This document shows, piece after piece, positions 41,528 to 63,572 of a DNA stretch of 64,000 nt. Below the pieces are notes generated by a model. The model had not been told where the DNA came from. It did no database searches and saw only the letters and a program-made list of their open reading frames with translations. A program made the position numbers and the translations under genes. The DNA lies in contig NZ_ANFZ01000006.1 of assembly GCF_000331245.1 (NCBI RefSeq), positions 124,001 to 188,000 on the forward strand. Reading direction: 5' to 3'. Source of the DNA: Blastomonas sp. AAP53 (GTDB lineage: Bacteria; Pseudomonadota; Alphaproteobacteria; Sphingomonadales; Sphingomonadaceae). Position 1 is the stretch's first letter. The number at the start of each line of letters is the position of its first letter.

Positions 41528-41677
41528 GTGTGTCCCTTCTGCATGTGCCCGCGATTACACACGACAAGGGGGGCGGGGGCAAGTTCGCCAGGCACGATTT
41601 GCGGCGAAATGGCGCGATTTGCGGCGTGTCATTTCCCATCTTGCGGCAGTGCACAATAGCTGTCACATCTTGTGCCA

Positions 41678-43105: not shown

Positions 43106-43136
43106 TGGCGTTTCCGATCACGCAGGGGATGCTCTG

Positions 43137-44078: not shown

Positions 44079-44132
44079 GGTGAGTTGCGAGGCGGATGTT
44101 GGGCGCGATAGTATAAGGGTTACGGGTCAACC

Positions 44133-45038
44133 ATGCGGCTGCATATCGTCCATCGGACATCCTATCACTACGACACACCCATGCCGTATGCACTGCAGCG
44201 GCTGCGGATGATCCCCAAGGATTCCGCCGGGCAGTGCGTCATCCGCTGGAAGACCGATGTCGAGGGCGGCACCAAGCAGGTCGAGTATTTCGACCATCAC
44301 AACAACCATGTCGAACTGTTCAGCTTCAATCCCGATCAGCACGAGGTGGTCATCCACTGCGAAGGCGAGATCGAAACCAGTGATCGCGCCGGGATGGTGG
44401 GGCAGCATGGCGGGTCTGCGCCCTTGTGGTATTTCAAGCGTGAAACCCCGGTCACGCGCGCTGGACCCGGCATTCGCAAGCTGCTGCGCCAGTTCGACGA
44501 CCCCGGCACTGCGCAGGGCGATGCGCCACGGCTGCACGCCTTGTCCGGACTCGTCCGGGGAGCGGTAGCCTATGAGATCGGCCAGACAGGCGCGACGACA
44601 ACCGCAGAAGAGGCGTTGAGCGCAGGGCATGGCGTCTGCCAGGACCACGCGCACCTGTTCATCGCACTGGCGCGGCTGCTGGGCTATCCTGCGCGCTATG
44701 TCAGTGGCTATCTGCTGATGAACGACCGGGTCGATCAGGATGCCGGGCACGGCTGGGCCGAGGTGCATGTCGATGGGCTGGGTTGGGTCGGTTTCGACAT
44801 TTCCAACGGCTATTCGCCCGACGAACGCTATGTCCGCGTTGCCACCGGTCTCGACTATCGCGAAGCCGCGCCGATCGCGGGGATCACGTTCGGACGCGGC
44901 ACCGAGGCGATGACTGTGACCCTGCAGGTGCAGCAGAGCCAGTCACAATCCCAGTCGCAATCGCAAGGCCACCAGTCGCAATCTCAATCCCAGCAGTCGC
45001 AGTCGAATTCCCAGTCGCAGGGCGAGGTGCCGTCGTAG
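44133..45038 (+). CDS. Transglutaminase-like cysteine protease family protein with Gln/Ser-rich tail (Anbu cluster)
   Basis: The 301-residue protein has the bacterial transglutaminase-like N-terminal domain (IVHRTSYHYDTPMPYALQRLRMIP) and the catalytic core with Cys in AGHGVCQDHAHLFIALARLLG near residue 170, His in DAGHGWAEVHVDGLGWVGFD near residue 210 and the following Asp. The last 40 residues are almost only Gln and Ser (QSQSQSQ repeats), unusual for the family and likely disordered. Family members act as peptidases or cross-linkers. No signal peptide is seen. Confidence 0.9.
   Translation: MRLHIVHRTSYHYDTPMPYALQRLRMIPKDSAGQCVIRWKTDVEGGTKQVEYFDHHNNHVELFSFNPDQHEVVIHCEGEIETSDRAGMVGQHGGSAPLWYFKRETPVTRAGPGIRKLLRQFDDPGTAQGDAPRLHALSGLVRGAVAYEIGQTGATTTAEEALSAGHGVCQDHAHLFIALARLLGYPARYVSGYLLMNDRVDQDAGHGWAEVHVDGLGWVGFDISNGYSPDERYVRVATGLDYREAAPIAGITFGRGTEAMTVTLQVQQSQSQSQSQSQGHQSQSQSQQSQSNSQSQGEVPS
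44932..45022 (+). repeat. Degenerate CARTCN hexamer repeat encoding the Gln/Ser tail
   Basis: About fourteen tandem hexamers of the type CAGTCG/CAATCC/CAGTCA encode Gln-Ser dipeptides at the transglutaminase C-terminus, broken by GGCCAC and AATTCC units. The array stays in frame and codon choice varies between copies, so the protein tract, not only the DNA, seems kept. Slipped-strand length change is plausible. Confidence 0.85.
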
Positions 45039-45078
45039 CGGTTTTCCACACCCAAAACCGCAAGCGCACCATTCGGGC

Positions 45079-45107
45079 TTGACCCGTTGTTGCGCATGAC
45101 CCCTTAT
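45079..45107 (+). promoter_or_regulatory. Possible internal promoter of the Anbu protease gene
   Basis: TTGACC (45079-45084), a 17-base spacer and CCTTAT (45102-45107) lie 35 bases before the protease ATG in the 103-base gap after the transglutaminase gene. The -35 match is good and the -10 match weak. It would allow the protease to be made apart from its cluster. Confidence 0.35.
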
Positions 45108-45141
45108 GAACTTCATGCGAACAAAGGGGGAGGACGCTCCT

Positions 45142-45873
45142 ATGACATATTGCGTCGGGATGCGCCTGGACAAAGGGCTGGTGTTCATGTCGGACACCCG
45201 CACCAACTCCGGCGTCGATAATATCAGCACTTTCAAGAAGATGTTCACCTGGGAAAAGCCGGGTGATCGCTACATCACGGTGATGACCGCCGGAAACCTC
45301 GCGACCACTCAGGGCGTCATCAGCGTGCTGGAAGAGCGGACCAAGGCGCCCGCTGAGCGCAAGCCTTCGATCATGGAAGCGCCCACCATGTTCCAGGTCG
45401 CGCGGATCATTGGTGAAACGCTGCGCGACGAGATCAATCGCACCCGGTCGATATCCGGCCAGACCGCCTCGTCCGCCTTCAGCGCGACGATGATCATCGG
45501 TGGCCAGATCAAGGGCATGGATCCGAAATTGTTCATGGTCTATCCCGAAGGCAATTTCATCGAGGCGGGCGACGACACGCCGTTTTTCCAGATTGGCGAG
45601 ACGAAATATGGCCGCCCCATCCTGGTGCGCGCCTATGATCGCGACATGTCGTTCCATGACGCGATCAAGCTGCTGATGGTGTCGTTCGATTCGACCATCA
45701 AGGCCAATCTGTCGGTGGCGCTGCCGCTCGACCTGCAAATCTACGCCTCCAACAGCTTTGCCGGTCGCAACCGCCGAATTCATGCGAGCGACCCCTATTA
45801 CAATCTGATCGCCGACCAGTGGAGCGACGCGCTGAAGACTGCCTTCCATTCGCTGCCCGATTATACCGGCTGA
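45142..45873 (+). CDS. Anbu/BPH proteasome-type protease
   Basis: The 243-residue protein is a 20S proteasome/HslV homologue of the Anbu (ancestral beta subunit) type. It begins MTYCVGMRLDKGLVFMSDTRTNSGVDNISTFKKMF, giving an N-terminal Thr nucleophile after Met removal and the characteristic Asp and Lys of Ntn hydrolases. FSATMIIGGQIKG and LFMVYPEGNFIEAGDDTPFFQIGETKYGRPIL follow. Known Anbu proteins form open helical or ring assemblies; natural substrates are unclear. GGGGGAGG precedes the ATG. Clustering with ATP-grasp, alpha-E and transglutaminase genes is the hallmark of the Anbu locus. Confidence 0.93.
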   Translation: MTYCVGMRLDKGLVFMSDTRTNSGVDNISTFKKMFTWEKPGDRYITVMTAGNLATTQGVISVLEERTKAPAERKPSIMEAPTMFQVARIIGETLRDEINRTRSISGQTASSAFSATMIIGGQIKGMDPKLFMVYPEGNFIEAGDDTPFFQIGETKYGRPILVRAYDRDMSFHDAIKLLMVSFDSTIKANLSVALPLDLQIYASNSFAGRNRRIHASDPYYNLIADQWSDALKTAFHSLPDYTG

Positions 45874-48038: not shown

Positions 48039-50240
48039 TTACCAGATGCGGATGCGCTTTTCCGGCGGCAGGTACAGGTCATCACCCGGCTGGACGTTGA
48101 ACGCCTTGTACCACTCGTCGAAATTACGGACGGTGCCGTTGGCGCGGTAGTTGGCGGGGGAGTGCGAGTCCGTCTGCAGCTGCTGGCGGAGGAACTCCTC
48201 GCGTGACTTGTTGCGCCATACCTGCGCCCAGGCCATGAAGAAGCGCTGGTCGCCGGTCATGCCGTCGATCACCTTGTCTTCCTTGCCGTTCAGGTGGATC
48301 TTGTACGCGCGGTACGCCATCGAAAGACCGCCGACATCGCCGATATTCTCGCCCAGCGTCAGAGCGCCGTTGACGCAGGTCTTGCCGTCATCGAGCGGGC
48401 ACAATGCGCCGTACTGCGCCACCAGAGCGCTGGTGAGCTTCTTGAAATTGGCCTGATCTTCCGGCGTCCACCAGTCACGCAGCACGCCGTCGCCGTCCGA
48501 TTTCGATCCCTGATCGTCAAAGCCATGGCCCATTTCGTGGCCGATGACCCCGCCGATCGCACCATAGTTCACCGCCGGGTCCGCCGTCAGGTTGAAGAAT
48601 GGCGGCTGCAGAATGGCAGCGGGGAAGACGATCTCGTTGCGTGGCGGCGAATAATAGGCGTTCACCGTCTGCGGCAGCATGAACCATTCGGTCTTGTCGA
48701 TCGGCTTGCCCAGCTTCGAGATGTTGTCCTTATAGCCCCAGGTCGTGGCTGCGATCACGTTGTCGAGTGCCTTGCCCGGCGCGATCGTCAGATTGTCATA
48801 GGTTTCGAACTTTTCGGTATAGCCGATCTTGGGTGTGAACTTGGCGAGCTTGTCGCGCGCCTCGACCTTGGTGGCATCGCCCATCCAGGTGATGTCGTCG
48901 AGGTTCGCCGCCATCGCCTTGCGCAGGTTGCCGACCAGCTCATCCATCGCCGCCTTGTTTTCAGCCGGGAAATAGCGGTCTGCGTAGATCTTGCCGACGA
49001 TTTCGCCCATCGTGCCTTCGACTGCGGCCACCCCACGCTGCCAGCGCTCGCGCTGCTTCTGCTGGCCGCCCAGCACCTTGCCGTAAAAGGCAAAGTTGGC
49101 CTGATCGATGTCCGAAGGCAGCACGCTGGCATTGCTGGACAGGAAGCCGGCCGCCAGCCAGGCCTGCCACGCCTCGATCGGCGCTGTGTTGGCAAGCTGG
49201 AACAGACCGCCAATGCCGCTGCCCAGCTTGGCTGCCTGTTCGGGCGTCAGCTTCTCTGCGGCGAGCTCTTCTGCCGTCGGGGTGAGCTGACGGACGACGA
49301 AGTCCTGTTGGCCATCGACTCCGATCGCCTTGATGAACGTCTCCACCGGGAAGCCGCCGCCCAGAGCGACCATCTCGGCCTTGGTCATCTTGTTGTAGGT
49401 CAGATTGCGGTTGCGGCCGACGGCGCGATCCCAGTGCGCGGTCGCGATCGCCTTCTCCAGGTCATAGACCGTCTGTGCGGTCGCTGCCGGATCGGCATAG
49501 CCTGCCTTGCCCATCAGGAAGGTCAGGTACTGCATGTAGCCAGCGCGGATCTTCTGGTTCGCTTCGCTGTCGACCAGATAATAATCGCGGTCGGGCAGGC
49601 CAAGGCCCGCCTGGGTCACCTGGAAGATGTAGGTATCGGTCTGCTTGGAGTCGATGTCGACAAATCCGGCCACCGGGCTGCGGAAACCGGGGGTGCCGAA
49701 CAGCTTGGCCAGGTCTTCGCGGGTCTTGGCAGCCTTGATCTTGTCGAGATACGGCTGGGCAGGGGCCAGGCCCGCTGCGTCGATGGCGGCGGTATCGAGA
49801 TAGGCGTTGTAGAACGCGGCCACCTTGCCGGCGCCGGTCTTCGGGTCGGGCTTGGTCGCTGCCAGCTCGTCGATGATCTTGCGCACGCGCTGTTCGGACT
49901 TTTCCGCCAGCAGCGTGAACGCGCCATAGCGGGTGCGGTCGGCGGGCATTTCGAAGCTGTCGAGCCACTTGCCGTTGACATAGGCATAGAAGTCATCGCC
50001 CGGCTTGACGGCAGGATTCATCAGCGTGGTGTCGATGCCCCAGCTGCCCCAGTAATCGCGCGCGGTGGTGGTAATGCCCTCGGCGTCGGGCGTGCCGGCC
50101 ATTGAGGCGTCGCCCGGCGCTTCGCCGTCCTCGATCAGCAGATCGATGTCGCGCGTCTGGCCCTCGGGCGCTTGTGCGCCAGCAGGCACCGTCGCCAGCG
50201 CGATCAGCGCCGCCGATGCAAACAGGATATTCTTGACCAT
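48039..50240 (-). CDS. M13 family metallopeptidase (neprilysin-like, PepO type)
   Basis: The 733-residue protein has a signal peptide (MVKNILFASAALIALATVPAGAQA), the M13 N-terminal domain (about 70-450) and the peptidase domain with the zinc motif GGVIGHEMGHGFDDQGSKSDG near residue 560. The third ligand region is LTLGENIGDVGGLSMAYRAYK, and it ends in the family terminus DDLYLPPEKRIRIW. It is a periplasmic zinc endopeptidase of small peptides. GGGGAGCT lies before the ATG. It is the only gene on this transcript. Confidence 0.95.
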   Translation of the reverse strand: MVKNILFASAALIALATVPAGAQAPEGQTRDIDLLIEDGEAPGDASMAGTPDAEGITTTARDYWGSWGIDTTLMNPAVKPGDDFYAYVNGKWLDSFEMPADRTRYGAFTLLAEKSEQRVRKIIDELAATKPDPKTGAGKVAAFYNAYLDTAAIDAAGLAPAQPYLDKIKAAKTREDLAKLFGTPGFRSPVAGFVDIDSKQTDTYIFQVTQAGLGLPDRDYYLVDSEANQKIRAGYMQYLTFLMGKAGYADPAATAQTVYDLEKAIATAHWDRAVGRNRNLTYNKMTKAEMVALGGGFPVETFIKAIGVDGQQDFVVRQLTPTAEELAAEKLTPEQAAKLGSGIGGLFQLANTAPIEAWQAWLAAGFLSSNASVLPSDIDQANFAFYGKVLGGQQKQRERWQRGVAAVEGTMGEIVGKIYADRYFPAENKAAMDELVGNLRKAMAANLDDITWMGDATKVEARDKLAKFTPKIGYTEKFETYDNLTIAPGKALDNVIAATTWGYKDNISKLGKPIDKTEWFMLPQTVNAYYSPPRNEIVFPAAILQPPFFNLTADPAVNYGAIGGVIGHEMGHGFDDQGSKSDGDGVLRDWWTPEDQANFKKLTSALVAQYGALCPLDDGKTCVNGALTLGENIGDVGGLSMAYRAYKIHLNGKEDKVIDGMTGDQRFFMAWAQVWRNKSREEFLRQQLQTDSHSPANYRANGTVRNFDEWYKAFNVQPGDDLYLPPEKRIRIW

Positions 50241-50404: not shown

Positions 50405-52090
50405 TTAAACGTCTGAGTTCTCTGCAGAGGGGCTCCAGCGTGACCAGCCGGGTTCGCAGATCGTCCTGCGGCCGGGCAGGACGCAGCGGCTCTCGGTTCC
50501 GGCCAGTTCCATCGACTGCTCACGGATGGTCCGCATCGCGTGCCAGTTCGATGTCGCCCGCTCCTGCGTCAGGTTGACGGTCATATAGCCGCGGCTGCCG
50601 GTGTCCGCCCATTTGAGCTGCGAATTGCCGCGCATCAGCGCGCCTGCCACATCCTTGGGCGCGATGGTCGGGGCATAAGCTTCAAAGCCAGGCGATGTGA
50701 CCGCATGCCCTGCAAACTCGACGCCTGCAGGCTTGCCATCGGCGCTCAGATCGAAGCCCCAGCCGTTGTGGCTGTCGCCCGACAGGACCACAAGATCGGC
50801 GTCCGCTGCCTGGGCCGACTTGAGCAGGGCTTCGCGCTGGACCGGATAGCCGTCCCAGGCGTCCATGTTGAACGGCAGGCCTGCCTTGCTGGCGGCAAGC
50901 CCTGCCGCAGAGCGCGTACGCACGATCTGCGGCGCATCCTTGGGCACCCAGTCTGCGGTTTCGACCGGCAGCTTGAGCGAGCCCATCACGCATTGCTGGG
51001 CCCAGACCTGCCAGCGCGTGCCCGATGCCTTCGACGCCTTGAACTGTTCGCCCAGCCAGCGCGCCTGATCGTCCCCCAGCATGCGGCGCTCAGGGTTCAC
51101 CCAGGTCTCATCGCGAAATTTGGCCAGTGCGGCTGCCAGGTCCCCACCGCCGGCGAAGGCCTCGGCGAGTTCGGCCGGCTTGTCGCGGCCGGACAGGCGG
51201 CTTTCGGTGCGGATGATCGTGGCGAGGTTGCCGATCTGGTAGCTGCTCCACAGCGCGTCGCCGGGCATCAGGTCGGCCACCGGCATCCATTCGCGATAGA
51301 CCTGTTCGGCGATCCGGCGGCGGGTGGCGTAATCGCCTTCGCTCGCATCCTGATGGTTCTGCGCGCCGCCCTTCCAGGCATCATTCGCGATCTCGTGATC
51401 GTCCCACATCGCGATCATCGGCACGCTCTGGTGCAGAGCTTGCAGATCGGGGTCGAGCCGGTAGCTTGCGTACCGCAGGCGATAATCGGCGAGCGTGACC
51501 ATCTCGTGATCGGGCTGCACCATCCGTCCGGCCAGCGCCTGCGCGCGGGTCGGGTAAACATCGGGCCCGTATTCATAAATATAGTCGCCCAGATGCAGCG
51601 CGAGATCGATGTCCTTGCGCGCGGCGGCATGGCCATAAGCGTTGAACCAGCCGAAGGGCAGGTTGGAACACGAGAAGACGCCCAGGTTGAACGCCTTCGT
51701 CTCACCCTTGGGCAGCGTGCGCGTGCGGCCGACAGGAGACTTGGTGCCATCTGCAGCGACGAAGCGATAGAAATACCAGCTGTCGGGCTTCAACCCGGCG
51801 ACCGTCAGCTTGGCGATATGGTCGCGTGCGCCGCTGGCGGTGACGGAACCGCCCGCCTGCGGCTTGGTGAAATCCGGTGTCGCCGAAAGTTCGGCGGTGA
51901 GGCGGGTGTCATTGTCGGCGACATAGCGCGTCCACAGCAGCACCGATTCGGCGCTCGGCTCGCCGCTTGCCACCCCATGCGAAAAGCCCCGCGCTGATGC
52001 GAAAGCCAGCGCCGCTCCCGGGATCGAAAGTGCGGCCAGGCCGAATGTGCCAGCCTTGATCAGCAGCCTGCGGTCGATCGTCATTGTCAT
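50405..52090 (-). CDS. phoD: Alkaline phosphatase D family protein, Tat-exported
   Basis: The 561-residue protein has a twin-arginine signal (DRRLLIKAGTFGLAALSIPGAALA) and the PhoD N-terminal domain (FSHGVASGEPSAESVLLWTRY). The metallophosphatase core shows GVFSCSNLPFGWFNAYGHAAAR, LHLGDYIYEYG, MIAMWDDHEIANDAWKGG and VVLSGDSHNGWGFDL, residues that bind iron and calcium. It is a periplasmic phosphodiesterase or monoesterase that releases phosphate from organic sources. GGAGGGG precedes the ATG at 52090. A Pho-box-like sequence lies about 110 bases upstream, so induction by PhoB at phosphate starvation is likely. Confidence 0.94.
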   Translation of the reverse strand: MTMTIDRRLLIKAGTFGLAALSIPGAALAFASARGFSHGVASGEPSAESVLLWTRYVADNDTRLTAELSATPDFTKPQAGGSVTASGARDHIAKLTVAGLKPDSWYFYRFVAADGTKSPVGRTRTLPKGETKAFNLGVFSCSNLPFGWFNAYGHAAARKDIDLALHLGDYIYEYGPDVYPTRAQALAGRMVQPDHEMVTLADYRLRYASYRLDPDLQALHQSVPMIAMWDDHEIANDAWKGGAQNHQDASEGDYATRRRIAEQVYREWMPVADLMPGDALWSSYQIGNLATIIRTESRLSGRDKPAELAEAFAGGGDLAAALAKFRDETWVNPERRMLGDDQARWLGEQFKASKASGTRWQVWAQQCVMGSLKLPVETADWVPKDAPQIVRTRSAAGLAASKAGLPFNMDAWDGYPVQREALLKSAQAADADLVVLSGDSHNGWGFDLSADGKPAGVEFAGHAVTSPGFEAYAPTIAPKDVAGALMRGNSQLKWADTGSRGYMTVNLTQERATSNWHAMRTIREQSMELAGTESRCVLPGRRTICEPGWSRWSPSAENSDV

Positions 52091-52198
52091 GGGTGCCCCC
52101 CTCCTTGAGGAAATTTCTGTTTTGCACATCGGACAGCGCGGGGGCCTTTTGGTCAAGGCCGATGTCGGGCGTGTGACAATCAGGCCAAAAATGTGATA

Positions 52199-52237
52199 AT
52201 TACAGAAATATGACATTCAGGCGTAAGATATATGACA
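52199..52237 (-). promoter_or_regulatory. Pho-box-like PhoB site of the PhoD-like gene
   Basis: On the minus strand, TGTCATATATC is followed one unit later by TGTCATATTTC and then TGTAAT. GTCA half-sites lie exactly 22 bp apart, and TGTCAT-N5-TGTAAT has the 11-bp spacing of the classical Pho box (TGTCAT-N5-TGTCAT). The site is well placed upstream of a phosphatase gene. Confidence 0.72.
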
Positions 52238-52253
52238 TTTGCATTGCCAGGAC

Positions 52254-52270
52254 TGTCACACAAGTGTAGC
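52254..52270 (+). promoter_or_regulatory. Weaker Pho-box-like site of the small helical protein gene
   Basis: TGTCAC-ACAAG-TGTAGC shows two TGT-led half-sites 11 bp apart, oriented toward the plus-strand gene at 52306. It lies back to back with the stronger phoD site, as in a divergent PhoB-controlled pair, but the second half-site matches poorly. Confidence 0.4.
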
Positions 52271-52305
52271 ATTTCTCCTGTCACCAACAGAAAGGACATG
52301 CCGAC

Positions 52306-52716
52306 ATGAGCACCAAAGTTATCGCAATCGCGGCCCTGGCCGCCCTCGGTATGGCTGCTCCGGGCGTTGCCCAGCCTGTGCAGAACCGGGCGGCGGCGAC
52401 CGAAATCGGCTATGCGGATGGCGCCCTGGGGTTTGCCGCGCTGATGAAGGGCAATTATCCGGTCGCGCTCGAACAAATGCAGGCCGCTGAAAAACAGGTT
52501 TCTCCGGCTGCCCGCCGTGATCCCGCAAGGTTGATCAACATGGGTCTGGCCTATGCCAAGATGGGCGATATTGCCTCGGCCCGTAGCCACTATCAGGCTG
52601 CGATCGGTGCAGAGCGTTCGTTTGATCTCATCCTCGCCGATGGGCGCGTCATGGACAGCCGTGTGGCGGCACGTCATGCGCTGCGCCGTCTCGACCAGGG
52701 CTATGCCAGCCGCTGA
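52306..52716 (+). CDS. Secreted tetratricopeptide-like protein
   Basis: The 136-residue protein has a signal peptide (MSTKVIAIAALAALGMAAPGVAQ, about 23 residues). A helical repeat-like part follows: IGYADGALGFAALMKGNYPVALEQMQAAEKQ, then PARLINMGLAYAKMGDIASARSHYQAAIGAERS, which matches a TPR hairpin. TPR proteins bind partner proteins; its partner is unknown. AAAGGACATGCC precedes the ATG. It is divergent from the PhoD-like gene across a Pho-box-bearing promoter region and has its own terminator. Confidence 0.8.
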   Translation: MSTKVIAIAALAALGMAAPGVAQPVQNRAAATEIGYADGALGFAALMKGNYPVALEQMQAAEKQVSPAARRDPARLINMGLAYAKMGDIASARSHYQAAIGAERSFDLILADGRVMDSRVAARHALRRLDQGYASR

Positions 52717-52748
52717 CGGCCAGGCCTGCTCCTCTTCACGTTCTGCTG

Positions 52749-52779
52749 ACCCGGTTGGACATGGTTCAACCGGGTTTTT
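52749..52779 (+). terminator. Rho-independent terminator after the TPR gene
   Basis: ACCCGGTTG (52749-52757) and CAACCGGGT (52767-52775) form a perfect 9-bp stem with a 9-base loop, followed by TTTTC. Confidence 0.9.
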
Positions 52780-52979
52780 CTGTGTCATCGGCTGCCGACT
52801 GTGGCCGATTAGCCACCTGATTGGGCCATAATCGCCTGCCGCAAAGGGTTGCGCGCTTTGTTTGCCGAGGTCGCGGGTGCGCGTACGCCCAGCGCCGACC
52901 CAATAAAAATCATTGAATTCAGAGTGATGCACTTGAGCTTTGCGTGATTGTCGCACGGCTTACACAAATGACTCCGAAG

Positions 52980-53011
52980 AGTCACAAACCTGACCTTCCT
53001 TTGTCATCAAA
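52980..53011 (+). promoter_or_regulatory. Pho-box-like site of the surface lipoprotein gene
   Basis: AGTCACAAACC and TGTCATCAAAA put GTCA half-sites at 52981 and 53003, exactly 22 bp apart. The first unit is nearly the same as TGTCACAAACT before gspC, which also has its second GTCA 22 bp on. That shared pattern, more than any single half-site, supports PhoB control. Confidence 0.6.
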
Positions 53012-53142
53012 ATCGCCCCGCAGGTTCATCTTGCCTGCCTATCAGCCCCCCGAACGGCGTTCCAGGGGGTGGAATCAGATCATCTCCGTTCGTTCCTGAA
53101 AAGCCGACAGACTGTTCTGTCCTGATTTGCGGAGATTCCAAG

Positions 53143-54702
53143 ATGCTCAATGCACGTGTTCGTTCGGTCCTGATGGCTTCGGCCGCAGCCCTGGTGGTTA
53201 CCGCTTGCGGCGCAGATGACGTTGCATCCCCCGGTGAGGGCGTGATCGTTGTTCCTGCTCCGGCACCTGCACCCGCGCCTGCGCCGGCCCCCACGCCGAC
53301 CCCGACTCCTCCTGCTACTGGCCCTGCTGCCGATTGCCCCAACGGCACCGCCAATGTCGGCACGATCACTTTGGGTGGCGGCGCGGTTGCCCGCAACTGC
53401 CAGCTTTCGGGCACCATCACGACCAACCTGGTCATCCCGCGTCGCGCTGGGACCGTCTATTCGCTCTCGGGCCGCGTTCAGGTCGGCATCGATGTCGGTG
53501 CTGCTGGCGGCGCCGGCACGTCGGCTATCCTGACCATCGAACCGGGCGTCACCTTCTTCGGTTCGTCGGGCGCCGACTTCCTGCTGGTCAACCGCGGCTC
53601 GCAGCTGTTTGCCGAAGGCACCGCGACCCAGCCGATCATCTTCACCGCACGTGACAACGTCACCGGCGTTGCTACCGCCAATTCCAAGGGCCTGTGGGGC
53701 GGCGTTGTCATCCTGGGCCGTGCTCCGTTGTCGGATTGCGCGACCGGATCGCCGACCAACCCCAATGGCACGCGCACCGATTGCTCGGGCGTGGTCGAAG
53801 GCACTAACGCCAATTATGGCGGCGCGGTACCGGCCGACAACTCGGGTCGCATCGCGTTCTTCCAGGTCCGTTATTCGGGCTTTGAAGTCCAGCCGGGCAA
53901 CGAACTGAACGGCATCACGCTGGCAGGCGTCGGATCGGGCACGTTCTTCCAGAACGTCCAGGTCTACAACAGCTCGGATGATGGCATCGAATGGTTCGGT
54001 GGTCGCGTGAACGGTCGCAACCTTGTCGGCCTGGGCAACGACGATGACACGTTCGACATGGATCTGGGCTATCAGGGCTTCAACCAGTTCCTGCTTGGTA
54101 TCCAGACCGCCAGCGCCAACCACGTGATTGAAGGCGACTCGAACGGCAACGAAAACGCCGAGCCGCGCACCAAGTGGTCGATGGCAAACGCCACCTTCGT
54201 GTCGACCCAGACCACCGCTGACGAAGCTGCGATCCTGCTGCGCGGCGGCATGGACTTCGCTGCCTACAACAGCGTCATTTCCGGCCCCGGCTGGTGCCTT
54301 GACGTTGACAGCGCGGTGACCATGCAGGCATCGGGCGCTGCAGGCGATGAAGCCGGTCCGCCGCGCTTCGAATCGGTGTTCCTCAGCTGCCCCAACGCCT
54401 TCACCAACGACAACAACGTTGCCGTTGCCGACATCCAGGCGCTGTTCACTGCAGGATCGAACAACACCATCAACGGCACTTCGACGCTGTCGGCCATCTT
54501 CATCAACGGTGCCAATGAAACCGCCCGTCCGGTGTTCAACGTCACCGGCCTCAGCGCAGCTCTGGGCGGCACGTTCTACAACAGTGCGGCTTACATTGGT
54601 GCGGTGCGCGATGCCGCCGACACACGGTTCCAGGGATGGACTTGCGGTCTGTACAGCAGCACGCCTGCCTGCACCGCAGTGCCGGCCATTCCCACGACCT
54701 GA
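53143..54702 (+). CDS. Proline-hinged surface lipoprotein paired with a TonB-dependent receptor and T2SS
   Basis: The 519-residue protein starts with a lipoprotein signal (VLMASAAALVVTACGADD, Cys22). An Ala-Pro/Thr-Pro hinge (PAPAPAPAPAPTPTPTPP, about residues 38-58) comes next. A long, cysteine-containing, Gly- and Asn-rich domain follows, with the look of a right-handed beta-helix (ITLAGVGSGTFFQNVQVYNSSDDGIEWFGG; FDMDLGYQGFNQFLLG). I do not know a reaction for it. A lipoprotein with a flexible linker beside a receptor and a T2SS operon fits a cell-surface protein exported by the T2SS, as with ElpS of Caulobacter. A Pho-box-like site lies upstream. Confidence 0.78.
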   Translation: MLNARVRSVLMASAAALVVTACGADDVASPGEGVIVVPAPAPAPAPAPAPTPTPTPPATGPAADCPNGTANVGTITLGGGAVARNCQLSGTITTNLVIPRRAGTVYSLSGRVQVGIDVGAAGGAGTSAILTIEPGVTFFGSSGADFLLVNRGSQLFAEGTATQPIIFTARDNVTGVATANSKGLWGGVVILGRAPLSDCATGSPTNPNGTRTDCSGVVEGTNANYGGAVPADNSGRIAFFQVRYSGFEVQPGNELNGITLAGVGSGTFFQNVQVYNSSDDGIEWFGGRVNGRNLVGLGNDDDTFDMDLGYQGFNQFLLGIQTASANHVIEGDSNGNENAEPRTKWSMANATFVSTQTTADEAAILLRGGMDFAAYNSVISGPGWCLDVDSAVTMQASGAAGDEAGPPRFESVFLSCPNAFTNDNNVAVADIQALFTAGSNNTINGTSTLSAIFINGANETARPVFNVTGLSAALGGTFYNSAAYIGAVRDAADTRFQGWTCGLYSSTPACTAVPAIPTT

Positions 54703-54724
54703 TTGCAAACCGCTGACCGGTTTC

Positions 54725-54758
54725 GGGGCGGCGGCGAAAAGCGCCGCCGCCCCTTTTT
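54725..54758 (+). terminator. Strong terminator or attenuator between lipoprotein and TonB-receptor genes
   Basis: GGGGCGGCGGCG (54725-54736) and CGCCGCCGCCCC (54742-54753) form a perfect 12-bp stem with a 5-base loop followed by five T. It ends only 21 bases before the receptor ATG and directly before its GGAGGG site. If both genes share the promoter, it would give much more lipoprotein than receptor. Confidence 0.92.
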
Positions 54759-54779
54759 GATGAATTCTTGGAGGGACCC

Positions 54780-57485
54780 ATGGCGAAATTGACGCCGCTT
54801 TCATTCGCTGCACTGCTGATGGCCAGCTCCGGCTTGGTTTCGCCAGTCGCTTTCGCTCAGGAAGCTCCTGCGCCTCAGGCCGACGCGCCTGATGCTCAGG
54901 AACCAGTCGAGGACGAGATCGAAATCTCTGGCCCCGGAGCCGGCAGCAGCGGTGAGGAAATCGTCGTGCGCGGTCGCTTCATCCCCAACCCGATCAAGGC
55001 CACTTCAGAGGTGCTCTCGGTCCTCAGCGAAGCTGATATCGCCCGCACCGCCGATGGCGACATTGCAGGATCGCTGCAGCGCGTCACCGGCCTCAGCGTC
55101 GTTGGCGGCCGCTTCGTGTTCGTTCGCGGACTTGGCGAACGCTATTCGCTCGCGCTGCTCAACGGCTCGCCGCTGACGTCGCCCGATCCGCTGCGCCGTA
55201 CGGTGCCGCTCGATATCTTCCCGACCAGCGTGATCGCCTCGACCACCATCCAGAAGAGCTATTCGGTCGACTATCCGGGTGAATTCGGCGGCGGCGCGAT
55301 CAATCTCACCACCAAGTCGGTGCCGCGCGATCCGTTCTTCAAGATCGAGTTCAGCACCGGCGGTGACACGATCACCACAGGCGAAGTGGGCTATACCTAT
55401 TTCGGTTCGTCGACTGACTTTACCGGTTTCGACAACGGCGCGCGCACACTGCCGGGCAACCTGCGCGATGCGTTCGCCTCTGGAAACCCGATTGCAGCGG
55501 GCACCAATTTCACCGCTGCCGAAGTGCGTGACCTGACCGCGAGCCTGGCCAACGCCAACACGTCACTGATCCAGCGCAACAACAACATTCCGGCCAATTT
55601 CTCTGGCCAGATCAGCGGTGCAACCAGTTTCCTAGTGGGCGATGTCAACATCGGGATCGTCGGTGCCACTGGTATCAACAACACCTGGCGTACGCGCGGC
55701 GGTGTTCAGCAGATTTCTCAGGGCATTGTTCCGGTCAACGGCGTCGATACGCTGAACCCGGATATCGATTTCCGGTACCTGACCACTGAAAACCGGATCG
55801 TGGTCAACGGTTTGCTCGGTATCACTGCCGATGTTGGTGAGCACAAGTTCAAGCTCACCAACCTGTATATCCGCGATACGTTGAAGGATGCGTCGATTCG
55901 TGAGGGTATCGACGCTCGCGTCACCGATACCCGCCTGATCAACCGCAGCCGTACCAACTGGTTTGAACGCCAGTTGATGAACAGCCAGTTCGTCGGAGAA
56001 ATGAAGTTCGACGATTTCCGTCTGAACTTCCGTGGCAGCTATGCCAATTCGCAGCGTGAAGCGCCCTATGAGCGGACGTTCGATTACACCTTCAACGCAG
56101 TGGCTGGAGATTTCGTCAACGATCTGCAGTCAGCGGGTGAAAGCGCGCGCATTGCATTCAGTGACCTGGATGACAATGTCTACGGCGCGAACATCGATCT
56201 GGCCTATGATGCGGACATCGGCATCCCGATCACGCTTTCGGCGGGCTATGCCTATTACAAGAACGACCGTACTTCGGTACGCCGTGACTTCCGCTTCCTG
56301 AGTGGCCAGGGCCCGCTGCCCTTTGCGGTTTCGCAGCAACGCCCCGATTTCCTGCTGTCGGACTTCAACGTCTATACGTTCGACGTCCGCCTGGTGGAAA
56401 CATCGGGGACCAATGGCGCAGCGGCGTATTCCGCCGGCCTGGAAGTCCAGGCAGGCTATCTGCAGTTCGAAGCCAAGTTCACCGACACGCTCAAGCTGCA
56501 GGCCGGTGTGCGGTATGAAGATGGCGACCAGTTCGTGCTGCCGATCGACCTGTTCGGTCTGGGCAGCGCCAACCTGGTGGCGACCAACATCAAGAAGGAC
56601 GACTGGCTTCCCGCCGCGACGCTGACCTGGAACCTGGCTGAAGACATGCAGGTGCGCTTTGCCGCCTCCAAGACCATCGCCCGGCCCCAATTCCGCGAGC
56701 TTGCGCCGCAGCAATATCTCGATCTGGAATTCGATCGCACCTTCTTCGGCAATCCGTTCCTGAAGAACAGCCGACTGATCAACCTTGAAGCCCGCTACGA
56801 GTATTTCTTCGGGCGTGATGAGCGCGTGACGGCGGCGGTGTTTTACAAGGATATCCGCGATCCGATCGAAAACCTGGGCTTCCGGCAGGGCGACAACTTC
56901 TTCACCACCTTCGCCAACGCTCCCAAGGCGACGCTGTACGGTGCGGAAATCGAGCTGGTGAAATATTACGACCTGATCGATCTGGGCGGCAAGTTCTTCG
57001 AAGAGCGCCGTCTGCTGATCGCGGGCAATTACACCTACACCAATTCGGACGTGAAGGTGACCGCGCAGGACCAGATCGCCGACCCTCTCAGTGGCAATAT
57101 GGTGGCAGCGTCCTCCATCTTCCGCACCGGCGGTTTTGCTCTCACCGGCCAGTCGGACCACATCGCGAATGTGCAGTTGGGTCTGGAAGGCACCGGCGAG
57201 CGCCTGTCGCAGCAGACCATCCTGATGTCGTGGAACAGCAACCGCGTCACCAACCGCGGCCCCGCCGGACAGCCTGACTTCGTGGAATATACCGGAGCGC
57301 GGCTCGACTTTGTGTGGCGTGAAGGCTTCAAGATCTTCAACAAGGTTGGTGAACTCAAGTTCGAGGCACGCAACCTGCTCGGAACCGATTATGCCGAGTT
57401 TCAGCAACTGAACGCATCGACGATTCTCAACAATGCCTATGACATTGGCAGGGCGTTCTCGATCGGCGCTTCGATCCAGTTCTGA
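54780..57485 (+). CDS. TonB-dependent receptor linked to the surface lipoprotein and T2SS
   Basis: The 901-residue protein has a signal peptide (about 1-27, ending AFAQ), an acidic Pro/Ala/Glu spacer and a TonB box-like EEIVVRGRFIP near residue 60. The plug domain shows DIAGSLQRVTGLSVVGGRFVFVRGLGERYSLALLNGSPL and FPTSVIASTTIQKSYSVDYPGEFGGGAINLTTKS. A beta-barrel follows, ending FSIGASIQF with a terminal Phe. GGAGGG precedes the ATG. It is separated from the lipoprotein gene only by a terminator. The ligand is unknown; the Pho context suggests a phosphorus-containing nutrient released by the lipoprotein or phosphatase. Confidence 0.93.
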   Translation: MAKLTPLSFAALLMASSGLVSPVAFAQEAPAPQADAPDAQEPVEDEIEISGPGAGSSGEEIVVRGRFIPNPIKATSEVLSVLSEADIARTADGDIAGSLQRVTGLSVVGGRFVFVRGLGERYSLALLNGSPLTSPDPLRRTVPLDIFPTSVIASTTIQKSYSVDYPGEFGGGAINLTTKSVPRDPFFKIEFSTGGDTITTGEVGYTYFGSSTDFTGFDNGARTLPGNLRDAFASGNPIAAGTNFTAAEVRDLTASLANANTSLIQRNNNIPANFSGQISGATSFLVGDVNIGIVGATGINNTWRTRGGVQQISQGIVPVNGVDTLNPDIDFRYLTTENRIVVNGLLGITADVGEHKFKLTNLYIRDTLKDASIREGIDARVTDTRLINRSRTNWFERQLMNSQFVGEMKFDDFRLNFRGSYANSQREAPYERTFDYTFNAVAGDFVNDLQSAGESARIAFSDLDDNVYGANIDLAYDADIGIPITLSAGYAYYKNDRTSVRRDFRFLSGQGPLPFAVSQQRPDFLLSDFNVYTFDVRLVETSGTNGAAAYSAGLEVQAGYLQFEAKFTDTLKLQAGVRYEDGDQFVLPIDLFGLGSANLVATNIKKDDWLPAATLTWNLAEDMQVRFAASKTIARPQFRELAPQQYLDLEFDRTFFGNPFLKNSRLINLEARYEYFFGRDERVTAAVFYKDIRDPIENLGFRQGDNFFTTFANAPKATLYGAEIELVKYYDLIDLGGKFFEERRLLIAGNYTYTNSDVKVTAQDQIADPLSGNMVAASSIFRTGGFALTGQSDHIANVQLGLEGTGERLSQQTILMSWNSNRVTNRGPAGQPDFVEYTGARLDFVWREGFKIFNKVGELKFEARNLLGTDYAEFQQLNASTILNNAYDIGRAFSIGASIQF

Positions 57486-57518
57486 CACGCCATACGGCCG
57501 TACGGCCTACGCAAAAGA

Positions 57519-57547
57519 GGGGGCGGACCGCAGGTCTGCCCCCTTGT
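57519..57547 (+). terminator. Hairpin terminator after the TonB-receptor gene
   Basis: GGGGGCGGACC and GGTCTGCCCCC pair almost perfectly around GCA, followed by TTGT. It separates the receptor from the gspC operon, which has its own Pho-box-like site. Confidence 0.75.
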
Positions 57548-57591
57548 CGTTGGGCTATTGCCGATGGCGCGCGCATTGTCGTTCAAATATC

Positions 57592-57620
57592 TGTCACAAA
57601 CTGGTAATCCAAGCGTCATC
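57592..57620 (+). promoter_or_regulatory. Pho-box-like site of the gsp operon
   Basis: TGTCACAAACTGGTAAT starts at 57592, with GTCA at 57593-57596 and again at 57615-57618, 22 bp apart. The first unit equals the one before the lipoprotein gene except for the first and last bases. It lies 60 bases before the gspC start. Confidence 0.6.
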
Positions 57621-57678
57621 CAGCGCGCCTAGCAGCGTCGGGGGGCCATGGGGATCGGCCTGCAACGGGGAGTGATTC

Positions 57679-58587
57679 GTGGCATCAGCGGCCCAAACTG
57701 GCGCGCAGACTGGCCTAGGTGCTTCGCTCTCCCGATTCCGGTCGGTGCGATTCGAGGCAAAGGGAACAGGGCTGGGGCGCTATCTGCCGACCGGCCTGTA
57801 CGGCTGGCTGCGCGCGTTGCTGGTGCTGGCGCTGATCATTCAGGTCGCCCGGCTGGTGTGGACGATCGTTACACCCATCGCGCCACTTGGTGACTGGCAG
57901 GCGCGCACGGCCAATATCATGTCGCCTTCCGCGCGCGCTGCGCTGTTCGCCAGCTTCGATGGCTTCGACCGGGCGGCAGCGACGGGCGATGCCAGTGCGG
58001 CTGTCACCTCGCTCGACCTGACGCTCTACGGCTTGCGCATGAACGAGGCCTCGGGTGGCGGGTCTGCGATCATTGCGGGGTCAGACGGTGTCCAGCGCAG
58101 CTACGATGTCGGGGAAGAGGTCTCTTCCGGCGTGAAGCTGGTGCAGGTGCTGTTCGATCATGTCGTGCTGGAACGCGCCGGCAGCCGCGAAAGCCTGTTC
58201 CTCGACCAGTCAGTCCCGGCAGAGACGGTGGGCGATGCGCCTCTCGCCGCCGCTGCCGCGCCGGGTGCAGTCGGCGCTCCGCCGGTGGTCCAGGCTCCAG
58301 GCCCGATGACACCCGAGGCGATCAACGGCGGCATCGGTTTTGCCCCGCGCATGGAAAATGGCCGTGCGACCGGCTTTGCTGTCACCCCCAAGGCCGATGG
58401 CGCCGTATTCGCACAGGCCGGGTTCAAGCCGGGCGACATCGTCGTCGAGATCAATGGCCGCAAGGTCAGCTCTGCCGCTGATGGCGCAGCCTTGGCCGGG
58501 CAAATACGGCCTGGCGCGCGCATTTCACTGCTCATCGAACGTGGCACGGAAACCCTTCCCATTGCCCTGATCATCCCGGAAAAATGA
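57679..58587 (+). CDS. gspC: Type II secretion system protein GspC
   Basis: The 302-residue protein has a cytoplasmic N-terminus, one membrane segment (GWLRALLVLALIIQVARLVWTIV, about residues 42-64), the periplasmic HR domain (VTSLDLTLYGLRMNEASGGGSAIIAGSDGVQRSYDVGEEV), an Ala/Pro linker and a C-terminal PDZ domain (GRATGFAVTPKADGAVFAQAGFKPGDIVVEINGRKV). GspC links the inner platform to the GspD secretin. The GTG start follows GGGGAG. The stop overlaps gspD (ATGA). It opens the gspCDEFG operon. Confidence 0.92.
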   Translation: MASAAQTGAQTGLGASLSRFRSVRFEAKGTGLGRYLPTGLYGWLRALLVLALIIQVARLVWTIVTPIAPLGDWQARTANIMSPSARAALFASFDGFDRAAATGDASAAVTSLDLTLYGLRMNEASGGGSAIIAGSDGVQRSYDVGEEVSSGVKLVQVLFDHVVLERAGSRESLFLDQSVPAETVGDAPLAAAAAPGAVGAPPVVQAPGPMTPEAINGGIGFAPRMENGRATGFAVTPKADGAVFAQAGFKPGDIVVEINGRKVSSAADGAALAGQIRPGARISLLIERGTETLPIALIIPEK

Positions 58588-60779
58588 AAAAAAACAGCTC
58601 CCTTTTCGCGCTGGGCGCGGCTCTCGCCCTGGCGACATCGCTGGCCTCGCCATTGGTCGCACAGCACAGTCTGAACGTGCGCGATGCAGACGTGCGGGCG
58701 TTCATCGAGGATGCAGCCTCGGTCACCGGGCGAACGTTCATCATCGATGGCCGGGTGCAGGGCAAGGTGTCGGTCGTCACCGACAGACCGCTCAGCCGCA
58801 GCGAATATTTCGAGGTTTTCCTCTCGACATTGCGCGCCAACGGGCTGATCGCGGTGCCCACCGCCAACGGCGCGTACCGCATCCAGCCGACCGATGGCGC
58901 AGCTTCCGCGCCGGGCCGGGTGGGCAGCCGAGGTGGGCAGAACGAGTTTGTCACCGAGGTCTTCCGCCTGCGTGCGATCGATGCGACGACGGCGGTCGAG
59001 ACGCTGCGGCCGTTGGTCAGCCGCGAAGGATCGATCACTGCCAATCGCAGCGGCAATAGCCTGGTCGTTGCCGATTATGCCGACAACATCCGCCGTATCC
59101 GTGCGCTGATCGGCCAGATCGACCGCGATAACGCGACAACCCAGGTGATCACGCTGAACCATGCCGGCGCGCGCGAGATCGCGATGACGCTCCAGCAGCT
59201 CAGTCCGGCGCCGGGCGGTGGCGCAGAAGGCGGCGGAGGCGGGGCGCCTTTGGTGTCGGTGGTGGCCGTCGACAGCAGCAATTCGGTCGCGCTGCGCGGC
59301 GATGCCCCGACGATCGCGCGGCTCACCGCAATCGCCAAGGAACTGGATGCGCGCGCCGCCAATGGCAGCGAAATCCGCGTGATCTGGCTCGATTATGCCG
59401 ATGCCGAGCAGCTGGTTCCGGTGCTGCAGATGATGGTCGGCGGGCAGGGCGGGGGCGGCGTGCAGCCGATGTCCGCTGCGGCTTCGGCCCCCGCAACCGG
59501 CGGCGCTGCGCCGGCAGCGGCATCTGCGCCCATCGGCGGCGCGGTGGGCCTCTCCAACGGTCGCGGCACCGCGATCATCACCCGCTATGAAGGCGCCAAC
59601 GCGGTGATCATTTCCGCGCCGGTCGATGTCCAGCGTTCGTTGGCCGAGCTCGTGCGGCAGCTCGATATCCGCCAGGAACAGGTACTGGTCGAGGCGATCA
59701 TCGTCGAGATATCGGACAAGGTGGCACGCGAGCTCGGCGTGCAGTTCCTGATCGGCGGCAAGGATATTCCGTTCCTCGTCACGCCCTTTTCCAATGTCGC
59801 GCCCAACATCCTCGACATTGCAGGCGGCATCCTCGCCAACGATCTCGACGAGACCACCACGGTCATCAACGGCGACACCGTCACCACCTCCACCAACAGC
59901 CAAGTCGGCGATTTTCTCCGCCAGAACGCAGCCAACCGGATTCTGGGTGCGCGCGGCGGCTACACCGGCTTTGCCGCCGATATCGGCAACAACCGCGTGC
60001 TGGGCGCGATCATCAACGCGGTGCAGGAAGACAGCGAGTCCAATATCCTCTCGACTCCTTCGCTGACCGTGAACGACAATGTGCAGGGGTCGATCCTGTT
60101 CGGTCAGGAAATCCCGATCAGCACCGGCGAGGCGCTGTCGAACAATTTCGACAATGCCTTCCGCACCATCCAGCGGCAGAATGTCGGCATCGAGCTGGAG
60201 GTGAAACCGCAGATCAACGCGGGCAACCAGGTCAAGCTCGACATCCGGCAGGAGGTCAGCTCGATCGTCGGGCCGGTGAGCAACGATTTCAACGAGCTGA
60301 TCATCAACAAGCGCGAGGTGAAGACCACGGTCACCGTGCGCGACCGCGAGATCATCGCGCTGGGCGGGCTGCTCGATGACAACGAGCGGCGCACGATCCA
60401 GAAGATCCCGCTGCTGGGTGACATTCCGATCATCGGCGAGCTGTTCAAGTCGCGCGGGCGTGAGCGGACCAAGACCAACCTGATGGTGTTCATCCGTCCG
60501 ACGATCCTGCGCACCGCCGAGGATGCGCAGGCTATCGCCGCGCGCCGCTACAATTACGTGCGCGCGGCGCAGATCGAGTTCAACCCCAAGGTCGAGCCCT
60601 CGCTCGACACCATCGTGCGCGATTATCTGGGCGCGAATATCCCCGTGGCCCCTGCCGCAGGGCCGGGCGATCAAGTCATCACGCCACGCGCGATGCCGGG
60701 CACCGCGCCGCTCGACACCACCACGCTGCCGCCGAGCAATGTGCAGCAGTTGCCGCCCATCAACGGAGGTCAGCCATGA
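58584..60779 (+). CDS. gspD: Type II secretion system secretin GspD
   Basis: The 731-residue protein has a signal peptide (about 1-27), N0 domain (SLNVRDADVRAFIEDAASVTGRTFIIDGRVQGKVSVV), N1-N3 domains with a Gly-rich loop (APGGGAEGGGGG) and an Ala/Gly/Pro insert in N3. The secretin core includes VLVEAIIVEISDKVARELGVQF, ILSTPSLTVNDN and VTVRDREIIALGGLLDDNERRT, ending in a Pro/Gln tail. It is the outer-membrane channel. Coupled to gspC and gspE by ATGA overlaps. No S-domain pilotin site is obvious. Confidence 0.95.
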   Translation: MKKNSSLFALGAALALATSLASPLVAQHSLNVRDADVRAFIEDAASVTGRTFIIDGRVQGKVSVVTDRPLSRSEYFEVFLSTLRANGLIAVPTANGAYRIQPTDGAASAPGRVGSRGGQNEFVTEVFRLRAIDATTAVETLRPLVSREGSITANRSGNSLVVADYADNIRRIRALIGQIDRDNATTQVITLNHAGAREIAMTLQQLSPAPGGGAEGGGGGAPLVSVVAVDSSNSVALRGDAPTIARLTAIAKELDARAANGSEIRVIWLDYADAEQLVPVLQMMVGGQGGGGVQPMSAAASAPATGGAAPAAASAPIGGAVGLSNGRGTAIITRYEGANAVIISAPVDVQRSLAELVRQLDIRQEQVLVEAIIVEISDKVARELGVQFLIGGKDIPFLVTPFSNVAPNILDIAGGILANDLDETTTVINGDTVTTSTNSQVGDFLRQNAANRILGARGGYTGFAADIGNNRVLGAIINAVQEDSESNILSTPSLTVNDNVQGSILFGQEIPISTGEALSNNFDNAFRTIQRQNVGIELEVKPQINAGNQVKLDIRQEVSSIVGPVSNDFNELIINKREVKTTVTVRDREIIALGGLLDDNERRTIQKIPLLGDIPIIGELFKSRGRERTKTNLMVFIRPTILRTAEDAQAIAARRYNYVRAAQIEFNPKVEPSLDTIVRDYLGANIPVAPAAGPGDQVITPRAMPGTAPLDTTTLPPSNVQQLPPINGGQP

Positions 60780-62374
60780 AGATCCGCAAGGGCGATACCC
60801 CGGCTGATGCGCCGATCGATGTGCTGGACGAGGCTGCTCTCGACCTTGCCCCGGAACGCACGATGGCGCGGATGATGCTCGACATTCCTTATGGCTTTGC
60901 CCGTGACAATGGCGTGGTGATGCTCGGCGAGGCCGATGGACGGATGAAGGTCGCTCTGCGCGAAGGCGCGGACCCCGTGACCCTGCTCGAAGTGCGGCGC
61001 TACCTGGCCATGCCGTTCGATGTCGAAATCGCACCGGTCGCGCAGTTCGAGCGGTACCTTTCGGACCATTACGCGGTCGAGGGCAATGCGGCAGCGATGG
61101 CGCATTCGATGAACATCGACGGCGGCGACCTGGAGCTGCTGGCGAGCGATCTGCCCAGCGCCGAAGACCTGCTCGACAGCGCCGACGATGCGCCCGCGAT
61201 CCGCCTGATCAACGGCGTGATCGCCGAGGCCGCGCGCCAGGGCGTCTCGGACATCCATATCGAGCCCTACGAGACAGGCCTTGTCATCCGCATGCGGATG
61301 GACGGCGTGCTGCAGGAAAAGCTGCGGATGCCGCCCAATGTCGCGCCGGTGATCGTCAGCCGCATCAAGGTGATGGCACGCCTCGACATTGCCGAACGCC
61401 GTGTGCCGCAGGATGGCCGCATTGGGCTGACCATCGGCGGCAAGCTGCTCGACGTTCGTGTTTCGACGCTGCCCAGCCGGGCAGGGGAGCGCGTCGTGCT
61501 GCGCCTGCTCGACAAGGAAAACGCCAATATGGATCTGGGGCTGCTGGGCATGAGCCCGCGTACCCACAAGATCCTGGCCGAGGCTTTGTCCGAACCCAAT
61601 GGCATCGTGCTGGTGACCGGGCCGACCGGATCGGGCAAGACGACCACGCTCTATTCGTGCCTCAAGCAGTTGAACGATGGCTCGCGCAACATGCTGACCG
61701 TCGAGGACCCGGTCGAATATGCGATCGAGGGTGTCGGCCAGACGCAGGTCAACCCCAAGGTCGGGCTGACCTTCGCAGCGGGCTTGCGCGCGATCCTGCG
61801 CCAGGACCCTGATGTTGTGATGATCGGTGAAATCCGCGATCACGAGACGGCAGAGATCGCGGTGCAGGCTTCGCTCACCGGCCATCTGGTGCTTTCGACC
61901 GTCCATACCAACGATGCGATCGGCGCAATCACCCGCATGCGAGACATGAAGATCGAGCCGTTCCTGCTCGCCTCGACCTTGCGCGCGGTGGTTGCGCAGC
62001 GGCTGGTGCGGCGGCTGTGCCCCGAGTGCCGCGAACCGGTGCAGGCCGATGGCTCGCTCGCCTCGCTGCTCGGCTTCGACAAGGGCACCGTGGTCTATCG
62101 CCCGGTCGGCTGCGATTCGTGCAACCACACCGGCTTTGCGGGCCGCATCGGCGTGTTCGAGGCGGTGCGCGTGGATGAAACCATCCGCCGCCTGATCAAC
62201 GACAATGGCGACGAGGCGATCATCGCGCGCCACGCCTTCCTCAATGCGCCCAATCTGGGCTCGGCCGCGCGCGAACTGGTGCGCACCGGCCAGACCACGG
62301 CGGAAGAGGCGATCCGCATTTCGCGGCGGGAGGCGGAACCGGCGCCGCCGCCGCCAGAAATGATCAATGGCTGA
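60776..62374 (+). CDS. gspE: Type II secretion ATPase GspE
   Basis: The 532-residue protein has the N1E/N2E region (1-130), Walker A GPTGSGKTTTLYSCL near residue 285, the Asp box VEDPVEYAIEGVGQTQVNP, Walker B AILRQDPDVVMIGEIRDHETAEIAVQASLTGHLVLSTVHTNDA and the zinc-binding CPECREP and CDSCNHTGF pair near residues 418-450. It powers pseudopilus extension. It is dedicated to this gsp operon and is not the missing Tad ATPase, which belongs to the TadA/CpaF branch. Confidence 0.96.
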   Translation: MKIRKGDTPADAPIDVLDEAALDLAPERTMARMMLDIPYGFARDNGVVMLGEADGRMKVALREGADPVTLLEVRRYLAMPFDVEIAPVAQFERYLSDHYAVEGNAAAMAHSMNIDGGDLELLASDLPSAEDLLDSADDAPAIRLINGVIAEAARQGVSDIHIEPYETGLVIRMRMDGVLQEKLRMPPNVAPVIVSRIKVMARLDIAERRVPQDGRIGLTIGGKLLDVRVSTLPSRAGERVVLRLLDKENANMDLGLLGMSPRTHKILAEALSEPNGIVLVTGPTGSGKTTTLYSCLKQLNDGSRNMLTVEDPVEYAIEGVGQTQVNPKVGLTFAAGLRAILRQDPDVVMIGEIRDHETAEIAVQASLTGHLVLSTVHTNDAIGAITRMRDMKIEPFLLASTLRAVVAQRLVRRLCPECREPVQADGSLASLLGFDKGTVVYRPVGCDSCNHTGFAGRIGVFEAVRVDETIRRLINDNGDEAIIARHAFLNAPNLGSAARELVRTGQTTAEEAIRISRREAEPAPPPPEMING

Positions 62375-63572
62375 CTTTGCCTATCGGGTGATCGATTCGG
62401 CCGGGCGCGAGCGCGAGGGGCGCATCCGCGCGCCGTCCGATGCGCAGGCGCGCGCAGCGCTCATCCGCAAGGCGTATCATATCATCACGGTGAGCCCAGC
62501 GCCGCCGCGCAAGGCGTTGCTGACGCAGCGCACCGCACGATTGAGCCCAAAGCAGCTCACGCTGTTTACCCGGCAGATGTCTTCGCTGATGAGCGTCAGC
62601 CCGCTCGAAGAGGCGCTGCGCACAATCAGCCGCCAGACCGAAAAGGCCAATGCGCGCGAGGTGCTGATCAACGTGCATGGCGGGGTGATGGAGGGTCAGT
62701 CGCTTGCGGAATCGATGGCGCGCGAGCCGCGCAGCTTTCCGCCATTGTACCGCGCGATGATCAGCGCAGGCGAAAGTTCAGGCTCGCTGCCGGTGATCAC
62801 CGAACGGCTGGCGGCGCTCCTGGAACAGCAGGCCGAGGTGCGCGGCAAGCTCATCTCCGCGCTCGCCTATCCGATCATCCTGAGCCTCGTGGCCTTCGGC
62901 GTGGTCGCAGGCCTGATGATCTCGGTGGTGCCGCGCGTGGTCGAACAGTTCGACAACGCGCAGACGCAGCTGCCGCTCATCACGCGCATCGTCATCGGAA
63001 TCTCTGCCGTGCTCGCTGATTACTGGTGGCTGATGGCGCTTGTTGCGCTGCTGGCGGGCCTGGGCTTCTGGCGCGCAATGAAGGTGCCCGCGTTCAAATA
63101 CCGTGTCGATACCTTCGTGCTGAAGCTGCCCTTCATCGGCAAGCTGATCCGCGACATGAACGCGGCACGGCTGGCGCGGACGCTGTCGACCATGGTGCAG
63201 AGCCGCCTGCCTTTGCTCGAAGGCATGAAGCTCACCACCCGCACCGTGCGCAACAGCGTGCTGCGCGAGGCGCTCGAAGAGGCGGTTGAGGCCATCCGCT
63301 CGGGCGGGTCGCTGTCCGCCGCGCTCAGGAATGCGGGGACATTCCCGCCGCTGCTGGTGTATCTTGTCGCCAGCGGCGAGAGTGCAGGCCAGCTCGATAC
63401 GATGCTCGAGCGCGCCGCCGATTATCTGGAGCGCGAGTTCCGCAACTTCACCTCCACCGCGATGGCGCTGCTCGAGCCGGCGATCATCGTGGTGATGGGC
63501 GGCGCGGTGGCGCTGATCATCCTGTCGATCCTGCTGCCGATATTGCAGCTGCAAAACCTGACTGGCTTATGA
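62367..63572 (+). CDS. gspF: Type II secretion inner-membrane platform protein GspF
   Basis: The 401-residue protein has the two GspF cytoplasmic domains (about 65-190 and 270-390; LTLFTRQMSSLMSVSPLEEALRTIS and LARTLSTMVQSRLPLLEGMKLT) and three membrane segments (ILSLVAFGVVAGLMISVVPRVV, WWLMALVALLAGLGFW, AIIVVMGGAVALIILSILLPIL). It anchors GspE and GspL. The start overlaps gspE by eight bases and follows the family N-terminus FAYRVIDSAGREREGRIRA. Confidence 0.95.
   Translation: MADFAYRVIDSAGREREGRIRAPSDAQARAALIRKAYHIITVSPAPPRKALLTQRTARLSPKQLTLFTRQMSSLMSVSPLEEALRTISRQTEKANAREVLINVHGGVMEGQSLAESMAREPRSFPPLYRAMISAGESSGSLPVITERLAALLEQQAEVRGKLISALAYPIILSLVAFGVVAGLMISVVPRVVEQFDNAQTQLPLITRIVIGISAVLADYWWLMALVALLAGLGFWRAMKVPAFKYRVDTFVLKLPFIGKLIRDMNAARLARTLSTMVQSRLPLLEGMKLTTRTVRNSVLREALEEAVEAIRSGGSLSAALRNAGTFPPLLVYLVASGESAGQLDTMLERAADYLEREFRNFTSTAMALLEPAIIVVMGGAVALIILSILLPILQLQNLTGL

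Follow-up and report, generated by a model that had tools for sequence, protein, structure and literature searches.

In Blastomonas sp. AAP53, four neighbouring transcription units, encoding a PhoD-like alkaline phosphatase, a small exported TPR protein, a surface lipoprotein with its TonB-dependent receptor, and the gspC-H part of a T2SS, are most likely switched on together by Pho boxes. The boxes, their identity with those of pstS genes, their conservation and the gene order can be read directly from the DNA. The features concerned, all within the 64,000-nucleotide stretch that was analysed (the window), are collected in Table 1. The identities first given to the PhoD, TonB-dependent receptor and GspC genes from the letters alone proved right.

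Table 1. Features of the cluster, with positions in the window
Feature	Position	Strand	Remarks
PhoD-like alkaline phosphatase	50405..52084	-	PF09423, E 1.6e-96; PF16655
Pho-box array, four 11-bp units, upstream of PhoD	52194..52237	-	score 20.1, second-best distinct site in window
Candidate Pho box of TPR gene, TGTCACACAAG/TGTAGCATTTC	52254..52275	+	weak score in window, 9.0
Small exported TPR protein, 136 aa	52306..52716	+	PF07719; orthologues upstream of the lipoprotein gene in other genera
Pho box, three 11-bp units, upstream of lipoprotein gene	52980..53010	+	score 11.0, third-best distinct site in window
ElpS-type surface lipoprotein	53143..54702	+	lipobox ...VVTAC22; predicted beta-helix-like
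Intrinsic terminator between lipoprotein and receptor genes	54725..54758	+	GC hairpin and T5
TonB-dependent receptor paired with lipoprotein	54780..57485	+	PF00593, PF07715
Pho box upstream of gspC	57592..57622	+	score 27.8, best in window
gspC-gspD-gspE-gspF	57679..63572	+	Pfam matches; gspG and gspH next

GTCA repeats in the window and the genome

The sequence-only reading had noticed GTCA half-sites exactly 22 bp apart (start to start) before three genes, and all three pairs are present: upstream of the PhoD gene (minus strand, 52236/52214; TGTCATATATC TTACGCCTGAA TGTCATATTTC), of the lipoprotein gene (plus strand, 52981/53003; AGTCACAAACC TGACCTTCCTT TGTCATCAAAA) and of gspC (plus strand, 57593/57615; TGTCACAAACT GGTAATCCAAG CGTCATCCAGC), the last two with the common core GTCACAAAC. 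The true period at these sites is 11 bp; degeneracy of the middle unit made it look like 22 bp. The PhoD array has a fourth unit, TGTAATTATCA, that reaches 52194. Its TGTCATATTTCTGTAAT core is retained by 5 other Blastomonas genomes, one of which shows a single substitution. It had further been stated that no such pair was noticed in front of the other operons. The window has two more pairs, one lying within a gene near 14793 and one on the minus strand (52969-52994) overlapping the lipoprotein array. The TPR gene, overlooked between the PhoD and lipoprotein genes, has a candidate box of its own.

The bare GTCA-N18-GTCA pattern is, when taken alone, weak and non-specific evidence. It has 72 matches in the 3.6-Mb genome, compared with 29 for the reversed pattern, and 45 of the 72 are intragenic according to a simple codon-usage gene caller. 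Exact adjacent 11-bp pairs occur six times genome-wide, mostly 5' of genes without an obvious phosphate link. The 72 matches, and the share of them within genes, speak for the view that the three matches in the cluster to a loose eight-base pattern are chance, picked out by the reader's selection. Chance is nevertheless hardly credible, as a matrix built from the pstS promoters of other genomes puts the three sites on top, and boxes recur in orthologous promoters of many genera, never before the receptor gene.

Identity of the repeats with pstS boxes

The matrix was trained on the upstream regions of pstS-like genes in 30 sphingomonad genomes, the Blastomonas sp. AAP53 genome being excluded. 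GTCA-GTCA distances in these regions were 11 bp in 16 cases and 22 bp in 13, every other distance occurring 3 times or fewer, and the antisense control gave at most 2 for any distance. Expectation-maximisation yielded from the same regions a de novo 31-bp motif, TGTCATAAAA.TGTCACA.AA..gTCACA.a. When both strands of the window were scored with this matrix, as had been proposed, the gspC, PhoD and lipoprotein boxes were the three best distinct sites, and the highest unrelated site scored 10.7. Ranked in the same way, the top distinct sites among the 72 pattern matches are those of an OprP-type porin, pstS, gspC, PhoD and the lipoprotein. Under the pstS matrix the three sites stand out. Genome-wide statements here rest on pattern searches and on about 320 kb of genome stretches under the matrix; within that other sequence of the same genome, the weak lipoprotein score was reached by three positions at two distinct places. 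A strong Pho-box-like array with a score of 24.0 and the core GTAATAAAACCGTCACG was also observed on the minus strand at C18 ~91019 (L138 ~2520), with no long ORF just downstream, and could serve a small gene or RNA.

A PhoB equivalog (330.7 bits, above the cut-off) is encoded in the same genome, in which pstS, two permease genes, an ABC ATPase gene and a histidine kinase gene adjoin each other. The genome also encodes other response regulators, which score lower against the PhoB model, and another member of the OmpR family that reads 11-bp direct repeats might in principle tie the cluster to a different signal. This appears very improbable given that the same matrix fits the genome's own pstS box (30.1) and that of a phosphate-selective porin (PF07396; 33.3), and that the phosphatase gene carries the same box. 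The GTCA repeats are supported as ordinary Pho boxes, and as candidate PhoB sites, by the spacing signature of pstS, by their ranking under the pstS matrix and by their conservation before the lipoprotein and gspC genes in many genera. The earlier idea of PhoB-type direct repeats of 11 bp agrees with the enrichment of 11- and 22-bp spacings in sphingomonad pstS and orthologous promoters.

Conservation in relatives

Orthologous promoters were drawn from 80 lipoprotein loci of named genomes, close relatives being Sphingomonas (Blastomonas) ursincola and B. natatoria, and a box was called at a matrix score of at least 12. Boxes were found in the lipoprotein promoters of 65 of 78 loci (antisense, 5; column-shuffled matrices, 0.8%) and in the gspC promoters of 39 of 43 (antisense, 0; column-shuffled, 0.6%), and in none of 77 receptor upstream regions. 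Counted without the matrix, a spacing of 22 occurs in 47/78 lipoprotein promoters and 21/43 gspC promoters, the mean of other spacings being 2.25 and 0.27, respectively. The same promoters carry boxes in the other Blastomonas genomes examined. Several genomes in which gspC was not found have a box 5' of an ORF located after the receptor gene, by eye a T2SS gene. The order lipoprotein, receptor, gspC is kept within 9 kb in 41 of the 65 loci with enough downstream sequence. For homology with ElpS, the protein compared was a relative, 45% identical, in a Caulobacter sp. MAG (L228), where it is followed by gspC with a box.

For TPR orthologues, a box scoring at least 12 was present in 17 of 20 cases, with scores up to 31, but the figure is less clear-cut here than for the lipoprotein and gspC genes because the opposite strand is also boxed in 14 of the 20 regions. 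At two places (L155 9264 and L156 9266) the minus-strand boxes, scoring 30.9 and 33.8, face away from the TPR gene, although the neighbouring gene runs towards it. Other genera, too, have divergent boxes close to the TPR gene, but no clear divergent gene was found for them.

The lipoprotein, its receptor and the phosphatase

The lipoprotein has at least 580 relatives, and had no match in Pfam or NCBIfam. Its AlphaFold model (mean pLDDT 88.9) is beta-rich, and a fold search returned no match at E of 0.001 or below, the weak best matches including many beta-helix proteins. A SusCD-like pair, with an alpha-helical lipoprotein of the SusD type, was also considered; the beta-rich predicted model makes a SusD fold unlikely. 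The strong intrinsic terminator that follows the lipoprotein gene and precedes the receptor gene has a folding energy of -33.4 kcal/mol with a small flanking hairpin included, and a hairpin with a T-run occupies this position in 27 of 77 relatives. With a terminator so placed, the receptor gene is probably transcribed from the lipoprotein promoter by read-through, and the lack of boxes before the receptor in relatives is as expected if that promoter serves it.

The PhoD protein has a twin-arginine-like N-terminus (DRRLLIKAG). Downstream of its gene and on the same strand lies a gene for an M13 metallopeptidase (48039-50240) with a signal-peptide-like N-terminus; this enzyme may be the protease by which ElpS-type lipoproteins are set free. 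Elsewhere in the window (41672-45873), circularly permuted ATP-grasp, Alpha-E, transglutaminase-like and proteasome-subunit-like proteins are encoded in a cluster that we take to resemble the Anbu gene cluster.

The split T2SS

The T2SS genes of Blastomonas sp. AAP53 lie in three loci, gspC-H in the window, gspIJK on contig C4 and gspLMN on contig C2, and the contiguous gspC-N of Caulobacter was not found in this genome; no sense-strand Pho box was found upstream of gspIJK or gspLMN. It could thus be argued that only the PhoD and lipoprotein genes are under strong phosphate control and that T2SS expression is largely constitutive, Pho contributing little to it, an argument that gains from the two boxless loci and from GspL protein levels in Caulobacter, which differ little between rich and poor medium (PMC2996285). 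Such a division is unlikely, however, when set against the gspC box, the strongest in the window and widely kept in relatives, and against the Caulobacter T2SS, which is part of a 47-gene PhoB regulon (PMC11208175). Joint control that includes gspC-H remains the preferred reading. The proposal of one phosphate-starvation cluster that takes in the T2SS is favoured by the fit to the pstS matrix, the conservation, the PhoB gene and the Caulobacter precedent, but is to be narrowed to gspC-H, where alone among the T2SS loci a box is present, and its regulation is what we infer.

Proposed regulation

At low phosphate, PhoR phosphorylates PhoB, which binds repeats of this kind and recruits RNA polymerase. 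In the cluster, phosphorylated PhoB would occupy the 11-bp direct repeats (TGTCAY-N5) when phosphate is scarce and would jointly activate the PhoD, TPR, lipoprotein-receptor and gspC-H units, with the receptor's share arising by read-through of the terminator. The joint role would be the freeing and capturing of phosphorus compounds at the cell surface. PhoB binding, induction at low phosphate and this role are suggested by what is known of PhoB and by analogy with Caulobacter. A more speculative and rather doubtful extension is that these genes form a conserved sphingomonad phosphate-capture module, in which the beta-helix lipoprotein would be the surface partner of the receptor and the TPR protein an accessory reserved for the module. 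Secretion of the enzymes or the protease that supply the module would then be limited by the portion of the split T2SS under Pho control.

Comparison with known systems

In Caulobacter crescentus, the genes for the ElpS lipoprotein (cc0170) and receptor cc0171 and gspC-N stand in this order; ElpS is produced under phosphate starvation and arrives at the surface independently of the T2SS, which helps its release, probably via a secreted protease (PMC2996285). The receptor was reported to be constitutive, a point against the joint control proposed here (PMC2996285). The same 2010 paper had already pointed out that Sphingomonas alaskensis has its genes in a comparable order (PMC2996285). Phosphate and PhoB control of an ElpS-receptor-T2SS cluster is published for Caulobacter, and the idea is not new; a search of the open literature, most subscription journals lying outside it, found no publication on the cluster's control in sphingomonads. 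With dozens of sphingomonad genomes compared, it is probable that PhoB directly controls, in a second alphaproteobacterial order, the module described from a single Caulobacter species, and the known unit is extended by the TPR gene and, in Blastomonas, also by PhoD. A further product of the analysis is a Pho-box matrix that can be used for sphingomonads, bacteria that matter in soil, in water and in the breakdown of pollutants.

The Blastomonas cluster is like that of Caulobacter in having the lipoprotein, TonB-dependent receptor and gspC genes in the same order. It differs in that its T2SS is split and boxed only before gspC-H, in the adjoining PhoD and TPR genes, each with a box, and in the terminator that separates the lipoprotein gene from that of the receptor. 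The boxes share with pstS and canonical PhoB boxes the 11-bp TGTCAY direct repeats, the matrix, the orientation and the upstream position, but depart from the canonical form in the degenerate middle unit of the three sites, a variant common in sphingomonad pstS promoters. Expression of the Hxc T2SS of Pseudomonas aeruginosa depends on phosphate starvation, and its cargo is the alkaline phosphatase LapA; Hxc differs from the Blastomonas T2SS in both lineage and cargo.
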